Source of the DNA: a virus
DNA: 40,323 nt
IMG/VR virus record: IMGVR_UViG_3300023090_000181
Span: 1 to 40,323 of that record
Direction: 5' to 3' (one strand)
Part shown: piece after piece, positions 981 to 19,137 of the stretch
How the letters are laid out: each line of letters opens with the position of its first letter
Position numbering within the stretch: position 1 is the first letter of the stretch
Made by a program: the position numbers and the translations under genes
Notes under the pieces: generated by a model
What the model was told of the DNA's origin: nothing
Databases searched by the model: none
The model's input: only the letters and a program-made list of their open reading frames with translations

Positions 981-1008
981 ACTCTAACACATATGTCCTA
1001 CTTGTCAA
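981..1008 (-). promoter_or_regulatory. Probable integrase promoter with embedded operator-like element
   Basis: On the minus strand TTGACA (1008-1003) is followed after 16 bases by TAGAGT (986-981). The spacer carries AGGACATATG, which closely matches the spacer of the divergent rightward promoter. Transcription from here would start about 30 bases before the integrase ATG. The -35 match is perfect and the -10 match is 4/6. Confidence 0.55.
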
Positions 1009-1210: not shown

Positions 1211-1310
1211 CCCGCCGCCCCGCAGATTTAAGCGTGAGTCCGCAAGGACGAGACGTCCGGCAAAGAGAGAACGTGGACCCGTAGGCTCGTGTAACCGGGC
1301 AGGCGGCGGG
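1211..1310 (+). promoter_or_regulatory. Structured GC-rich leader RNA, unidentified
   Basis: Directly downstream of the rightward promoter, CCCGCCGCC (1211-1219) can pair perfectly with GGCGGCGGG (1302-1310), closing about 80 nt. Inside are a GUCC-GCAA-GGAC hairpin with a GNRA tetraloop (1238-1249), a GUCC/GGAC stem (1255-1258 with 1275-1278) and a GCUCG/CGGGC hairpin with a 6-nt loop (1285-1300). No U-run follows the closing stem, so it is not a simple terminator. It ends 15 nt before the first gene's start. An open frame crosses it but encodes an Arg/Pro-rich, unprotein-like sequence. I do not recognise a known RNA class. Confidence 0.45.
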
Positions 1311-2810: not shown

Positions 2811-3230
2811 TTAAACCCGGCCATCTGGTAAGGCGGCTTTCGGAAGAATCAGCAGACCAGCCTCGATCAGCTTCGCTGTCAACCGGTCCATGGCCACGGG
2901 GAACTTGTACGCGATGGTTCTCTCGCCCATCCCAAGCAACTGAGCCGCCTCGGGGTGTGTGTACTCCTGGAGGACGATTCTCTCCAGCATGGCCCGGTCG
3001 AGGGATGGCAACGCCTTAATGCACTTCTCCATGTCATGGACGAAGATGACTGCTTCCTCGAAGTTGCGGATTGGCCGGCTGGAAACCCACCCTCTACCCA
3101 CGGAGTCAATCATGCCCGAGCCAACCCGAGCCGCCTGCATCGAGCAGTAGAGGTATCGCCTGAGCAGGCCATGGGTATGACGTCGAAAAAAATAGAGGTC
3201 TGTGGCCGTGACTTCATGAGCTTTCTTCAC
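2811..3230 (-). CDS. Sigma-70 region 4-like DNA-binding protein
   Basis: 139 aa. The C-terminal third contains a helix-turn-helix resembling sigma-70 region 4: LDRAMLERIVLQEYTHPEAA then QLLGMGERTIAYKFPVAMDRL (about residues 78-117). No region 2 is visible, so it is more likely a region-4-only activator, an ArpU-like late regulator or an anti-terminator than a complete sigma factor. It is the last gene of the late operon, starting with GTG in a GTGA overlap with the upstream gene, and it ends against the convergent rightward operon. It could feed back on late transcription (inference). Confidence 0.6.
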   Translation of the reverse strand: MKKAHEVTATDLYFFRRHTHGLLRRYLYCSMQAARVGSGMIDSVGRGWVSSRPIRNFEEAVIFVHDMEKCIKALPSLDRAMLERIVLQEYTHPEAAQLLGMGERTIAYKFPVAMDRLTAKLIEAGLLILPKAALPDGRV

Positions 3231-19063: not shown

Positions 19064-19137
19064 TGGTTCCGGGTGCCGGATTTGAACCGGCGTCTCGGGA
19101 GTATGAGCCCCGCGGATTACCACTTTCCCAACCCGGT
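19064..19137 (-). tRNA. tRNA with anticodon CAU, initiator (fMet)-like
   Basis: A full cloverleaf fits on the minus strand. Acceptor ACCGGGT (19137-19131) pairs with ACCCGGA except at 1-72, an A-A mismatch; then A73 and an encoded CCA (19066-19064). The D-arm has G18-G19 and G10-C25, G11-C24, A12-U23; the anticodon stem is CGGGG/TCCCG with loop CTCATAC (19107-19101); the T-arm is GCCGG-TTCAAAT-CCGGC. Unpaired 1-72, purine 11 with pyrimidine 24, G29-G31 and loop TTCAAAT are initiator traits; U39 and the 13-22 mismatch depart from it. Confidence 0.85.

Follow-up and report, generated by a model that had tools for sequence, protein, structure and literature searches.

A conserved structured leader RNA at the head of a rightward operon in a group of uncultured phages

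The 100 nt at positions 1211 to 1310 of the window, as we call the whole 40,323-base IMG/VR record analysed here, constitute a leader that is conserved among related phages both in sequence and in predicted structure, is non-coding, lies outside Rfam and keeps a fixed spacing to the promoter before it and to the start codon after it. A first-pass annotation of the same DNA had described a perfect 9-bp GC closing stem around three hairpins, one with a GNRA tetraloop, and the fold that we obtained for 1211 to 1310 agrees with this description: a G+C closing stem, P1, formed by nine perfect pairs between CCCGCCGCC and GGCGGCGGG, encloses three hairpins, one of which bears a GCAA tetraloop. The elements of the predicted fold are the following.

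1211-1219, + strand: 5' strand of the closing stem P1, CCCGCCGCC (fold, pairing test, base-pair probabilities).
1221-1234, + strand: hairpin P2, CGC-AGAUUUAA-GCG (fold and alignment).
1238-1249, + strand: hairpin P3, GUCC-GCAA-GGAC, with a GNRA loop (fold, alignment, pairing test).
1255-1300, + strand: hairpin P4, with a conserved base and a variable apical arm (fold, alignment, pairing test).
1302-1310, + strand: 3' strand of the closing stem P1, GGCGGCGGG (fold, pairing test, base-pair probabilities).

The base of P4 pairs GUCCGG (1255-1260) with CCGGGC (1295-1300), carries GUAA on its 3' side and closes a long variable arm. In the window, base-pair probabilities reach 0.99 to 1.0 for P1 and 0.85 to 0.93 for P2 to P4, and the region from 1200 to 1320 has a minimum free energy of -44.6 kcal/mol (z -2.5, with 2 of 200 shuffles equally good). 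Taken as a single sequence, the window leader is only mildly unusual in its folding energy, given that 66 of 4024 100-nt windows of the genome fold at least equally well (about 6% once corrected for GC content) and that six other 9-bp inverted-repeat matches with similar spacing occur in the same genome. It is therefore the conservation in relatives that lifts the structure above chance.

Using the putative capsid protein of the window as the query, we assembled a set of 30 related contigs, one of which (G017) matched the leader at 76% identity across about 150 bases. A pattern scan yielded further copies in L129 and L130, and in all four uncultured phage contigs, the window included, the order of promoter, leader and first gene is the same. 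In the comparison of the window with G017, its closest complete relative, identity is 88% over the 5' half of the leader, as against 58% for the first gene, 43% for the upstream region and 42% for the apical arm of P4, in line with the earlier suggestion that the RNA itself is under selection. Within the leader, the block GTAACCGGGCAG is invariant at 12 of 12 positions in all four close copies, and the P2 loop AGAUUUAA varies among them only at its single Y position.

A covariance model built from the four close copies recovered a fifth, divergent copy in G002 (31.3 bits), a contig whose capsid is 98% identical to that of the window. The remaining matches to the model, including those in some 80 more distantly related phage records that have DUF4326 genes, scored at most 21.6 bits; matches of 22 bits or less, one of them in the capsid region of G017, were counted as background. 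The G002 copy retains P1 and the base of P4 and is devoid of P2 and P3; it lies between two genes, beginning 12 nt past a stop codon and ahead of a DUF2786/DUF7168 gene, with no visible promoter, and the probability of P4 in its predicted fold is only 0.12. Just upstream of the divergent copy (2113-2199 of L118), an 18-nt near-repeat of the 3' part of the leader, with one mismatch, occupies L118:2091-2108 and overlaps the stop codon of the preceding gene.

Within the collections searched, the leader was found in this phage group only. All five contigs that reach far enough upstream of the zinc-finger gene of the operon have the element (the window being counted, and G015 being cut off earlier). 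Searches for relatives with the first gene alone, the integrase alone or an 18-mer gave none or chance matches, blastn against named phages and plasmids returned no copy of the leader, and tblastn with two operon proteins against phages gave no match. A strict pattern scan of 84,980 genomes had one match, in a coding stretch of Leptolyngbya that was judged a chance occurrence; with so strict a pattern, distant forms of the leader could be missed.

The alignment of the copies lends the fold a positive but weak covariation signal. Compensatory changes, which the first-pass annotation had proposed to look for among homologues, do exist, and they are few: two pairs are changed on both sides, namely the outermost pair of P1 (C-G/U-A) and the second pair of P4 (U-G/C-G/G-C), the latter depending on the divergent G002 copy with its poorly predicted P4. 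All further changes in the stems give G-U wobbles, apart from two P1 pairs that are mismatched in L129. Paired cells amount to 98% in the true register and to at most 43% when the register is slid; as the covariation value was reached by 26 of 500 shuffles in a set of five sequences, three of them nearly identical, the covariation is suggestive, short of proof. The shuffle z-scores of the leaders of G017, L129 and L130 are only -0.7 to -1.5, and the predicted probability of P1 falls to 0.41 in L129. Moreover, RNAalifold applied to the four copies favoured an inner fold that differs in part and has an extended P3; this alternative has a probability of 0.02 to 0.28 in single sequences.

A coding role for the leader was rejected, owing to frame-shifting indels between copies, differing stops and the lack of a common start codon; the peptide encoded there had already been deemed implausible, and no homologous protein is conserved through the region. 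The earlier label of an unclassified RNA is likewise borne out by the Rfam search, in which the window leader had no gathering-score match in Rfam 15, and three leader copies gave no credible match, only chance-level ones at E<=10.

The leader had also been placed between a clear promoter and the first start codon, and this placement holds in the window, where the surrounding features are the following.

1126-1141, no strand assigned: putative CRP/FNR-like site, palindrome TGTGA-N6-TCACG, read from the sequence, 42 bp upstream of the -35 element.
1168-1195, + strand: sigma-70-like promoter TTGACA-16-TAAATT with an extended -10 TG, from a sequence scan.
1172-1188, no strand assigned: operator-like palindrome within the promoter spacer, CACATAGGACCTATGTG in the consensus of the relatives, with 3 mismatches in the window.
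1311-1325, + strand: purine-rich ribosome-binding region, from sequence and predicted pairing.
1326-1580, + strand: first operon gene, with a GTG start, for an 84-aa acidic protein, predicted all-helical, with no assigned function.
1577-1870, + strand: gene for a DUF4326 protein, the second operon gene in the window and in L130.

The promoter is kept in three relatives as TTGACA...TGCTAATGT, and P1 begins 15 nt past the -10 element, a distance that is constant across the four close copies. The CACATAGGACCTATGTG palindrome is a perfect 17-mer in G017, L129 and L130, and a second, degenerate 17-bp copy of the same type occurs at window positions 988-1004, in the divergent integrase promoter; the two palindromes of the window (988-1004 and 1172-1188) are likely to be a shared repressor operator. 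Furthermore, the CRP/FNR-like palindrome is also present in G017 (L114) and L130, at a spacing of 42 to 43 bp from the -35 element. It seems more likely that the on/off timing of the operon would be set by these promoter sites, the operator palindrome and the CRP-like site, rather than by the RNA. Just upstream of the operator in G017 and L129 there is a ribbon-helix-helix-like gene (L114:1798-1995, + strand; L129:11731-11928, - strand), which scores below the cut-off of Pfam and of which no counterpart was found in the window.

On the downstream side, the distance from the end of P1 to the start codon is 14 to 15 nt in the four close copies (15 nt in the window), and the first 9 nt past P1, comprising most of AAAGAAAGG, the Shine-Dalgarno stretch, have a predicted unpaired probability above 0.9 in the window. 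Each of the four close copies of the leader is followed by the gene for the 84-aa protein, and a fold search with this protein gave no significant match. The DUF4326 gene is absent from the second-gene position in G017 and L129. The operon is about 1.5 kb long in the window, and in the window, G017 and L130 the operon strand shows no intrinsic-terminator-like site from the leader through to the operon's end.

As for the wider setting, the window has integrase, terminase, portal, tail and RecT/YqaJ genes. The record starts exactly at the integrase stop codon (1-3), and its other end (40323) is a GTG start on the - strand; with both ends on gene boundaries, it looks trimmed from a longer contig. 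At 19064-19137 (- strand), beside the putative capsid gene, a tRNA-Met (CAT) gene is embedded among the structural genes, and positions 2811-3230 (- strand), convergent with the rightward operon, encode a protein of 139 aa that has a sigma-70 region 4-like domain.

The leader probably serves its operon as a controlling or stabilising element. The explanation that we tentatively prefer is that of a permanently folded, cis-acting 5' leader that would stabilise or insulate the mRNA or raise the expression of the operon, perhaps binding a protein through its conserved loops. The stabilising stem-loops of ompA-type 5' untranslated regions, in which a stable stem near the 5' end leaves the ribosome-binding site free, resemble the leader in both these respects, whereas the loops of the leader are conserved beyond the needs of generic stability. 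The main alternative, possible and on balance unlikely, is a put-like RNA, in which case the nascent leader would bind RNA polymerase and render it resistant to pausing and termination throughout the operon. The put RNA of phage HK022 suppresses termination by binding to the zinc-binding domain of the RNA polymerase beta' subunit. In its position the leader is indeed comparable to HK022 putL, being a structured RNA in cis immediately downstream of a temperate-phage promoter, which for putL is an early one (PMC9378689), and the operon in the window is probably an early one as well. However, put is about 70 nt long, consists of two tandem stem-loops and acts on terminators (PMC9378689), whereas the leader is a 100-nt element in which one stem closes a multi-branch fold of three hairpins, and its short operon shows no intrinsic terminator. 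The sequence relation between leader and put was compared through Rfam only. The first-pass annotation had offered a regulatory leader and an anti-terminator RNA as options; the two are indistinguishable here, and an anti-terminator would have no intrinsic terminator within the operon to act on.

A ligand- or protein-sensing leader, either a riboswitch or an autoregulatory site that switches the operon, appears unlikely. Junctions and loops are conserved beneath a G+C closing stem, as in the P1-closed multi-branch aptamers of riboswitches, and the extended-P3 alternative fold likewise speaks for this reading; unlike such aptamers, however, the leader shows no visible expression platform, since there is no terminator and the Shine-Dalgarno stretch is not sequestered, Rfam gives it no credible match at E<=10, and within the collections searched its copies come from one phage group only. 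Moreover, RNA binding by the first-gene product is improbable because this protein is acidic. It is very improbable that the operon transcript is processed into a trans-acting or immunity-type RNA, of the P4 CI or P1/P7 c4 type. Such RNAs are likewise leaders of phage operons, and stable hairpins at the head of an operon near the integrase would suit them; the immunity option raised earlier nevertheless finds no support, as no terminator follows the leader, the leader does not pair stably with the ribosome-binding site downstream of it (1311-1360) in the predicted folds, and its best match in the rest of the phage, a 12-mer with an E value of 1.6, is not significant. The largely unpaired Shine-Dalgarno stretch and the lack of an intrinsic terminator thus argue at once against a standard riboswitch switch and against a c4/CI-type immunity RNA. 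It is also highly doubtful that the element acts as DNA, through protein-binding inverted repeats or as a recombination site. Its place in the intergenic region between the integrase and the rightward operon, beside two operator palindromes, would fit this role, but the + strand has G-U wobbles in P1 of G017, in P3 of three copies and in P4 of the window, and these would be mismatches in a DNA palindrome or on the other strand; moreover, the element stands at fixed distances from the promoter and the start codon.

Under the preferred explanation of a folded cis-acting leader, transcription of the region would yield the 5' leader of a short rightward operon, accessory or early in kind, that adjoins the integrase of a temperate phage, with the RNA starting, as we infer, about 8 nt ahead of P1. 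On leaving the polymerase, the leader would adopt its compact multi-branch fold, closed by the G+C stem. This fold would end 15 nt short of the start codon and would leave the ribosome-binding site largely free. It would then act in cis, presumably by shielding the 5' end of the transcript and by insulating or presenting the ribosome-binding site. Generic stability would not by itself lead to the conservation of loops, so the invariant P2 loop, the GCAA tetraloop and the GUAA loop are probably sites of contact with a protein of the host or of the phage. It is possible to speculate further, as an unlikely extension, that the element is the founding example of a new class of leader RNAs in phages. 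These would bind the transcription or translation machinery of the host, resemble put in their action while having an unrelated fold, and move between genes within the phage group.

For this uncatalogued structured RNA there are now five copies, exact borders and a covariance model, and the phages that carry it are so far represented by metagenomic sequence only. If it acts on RNA polymerase or on the ribosome, it would be an addition to the very short list of RNA-only control elements of phages.
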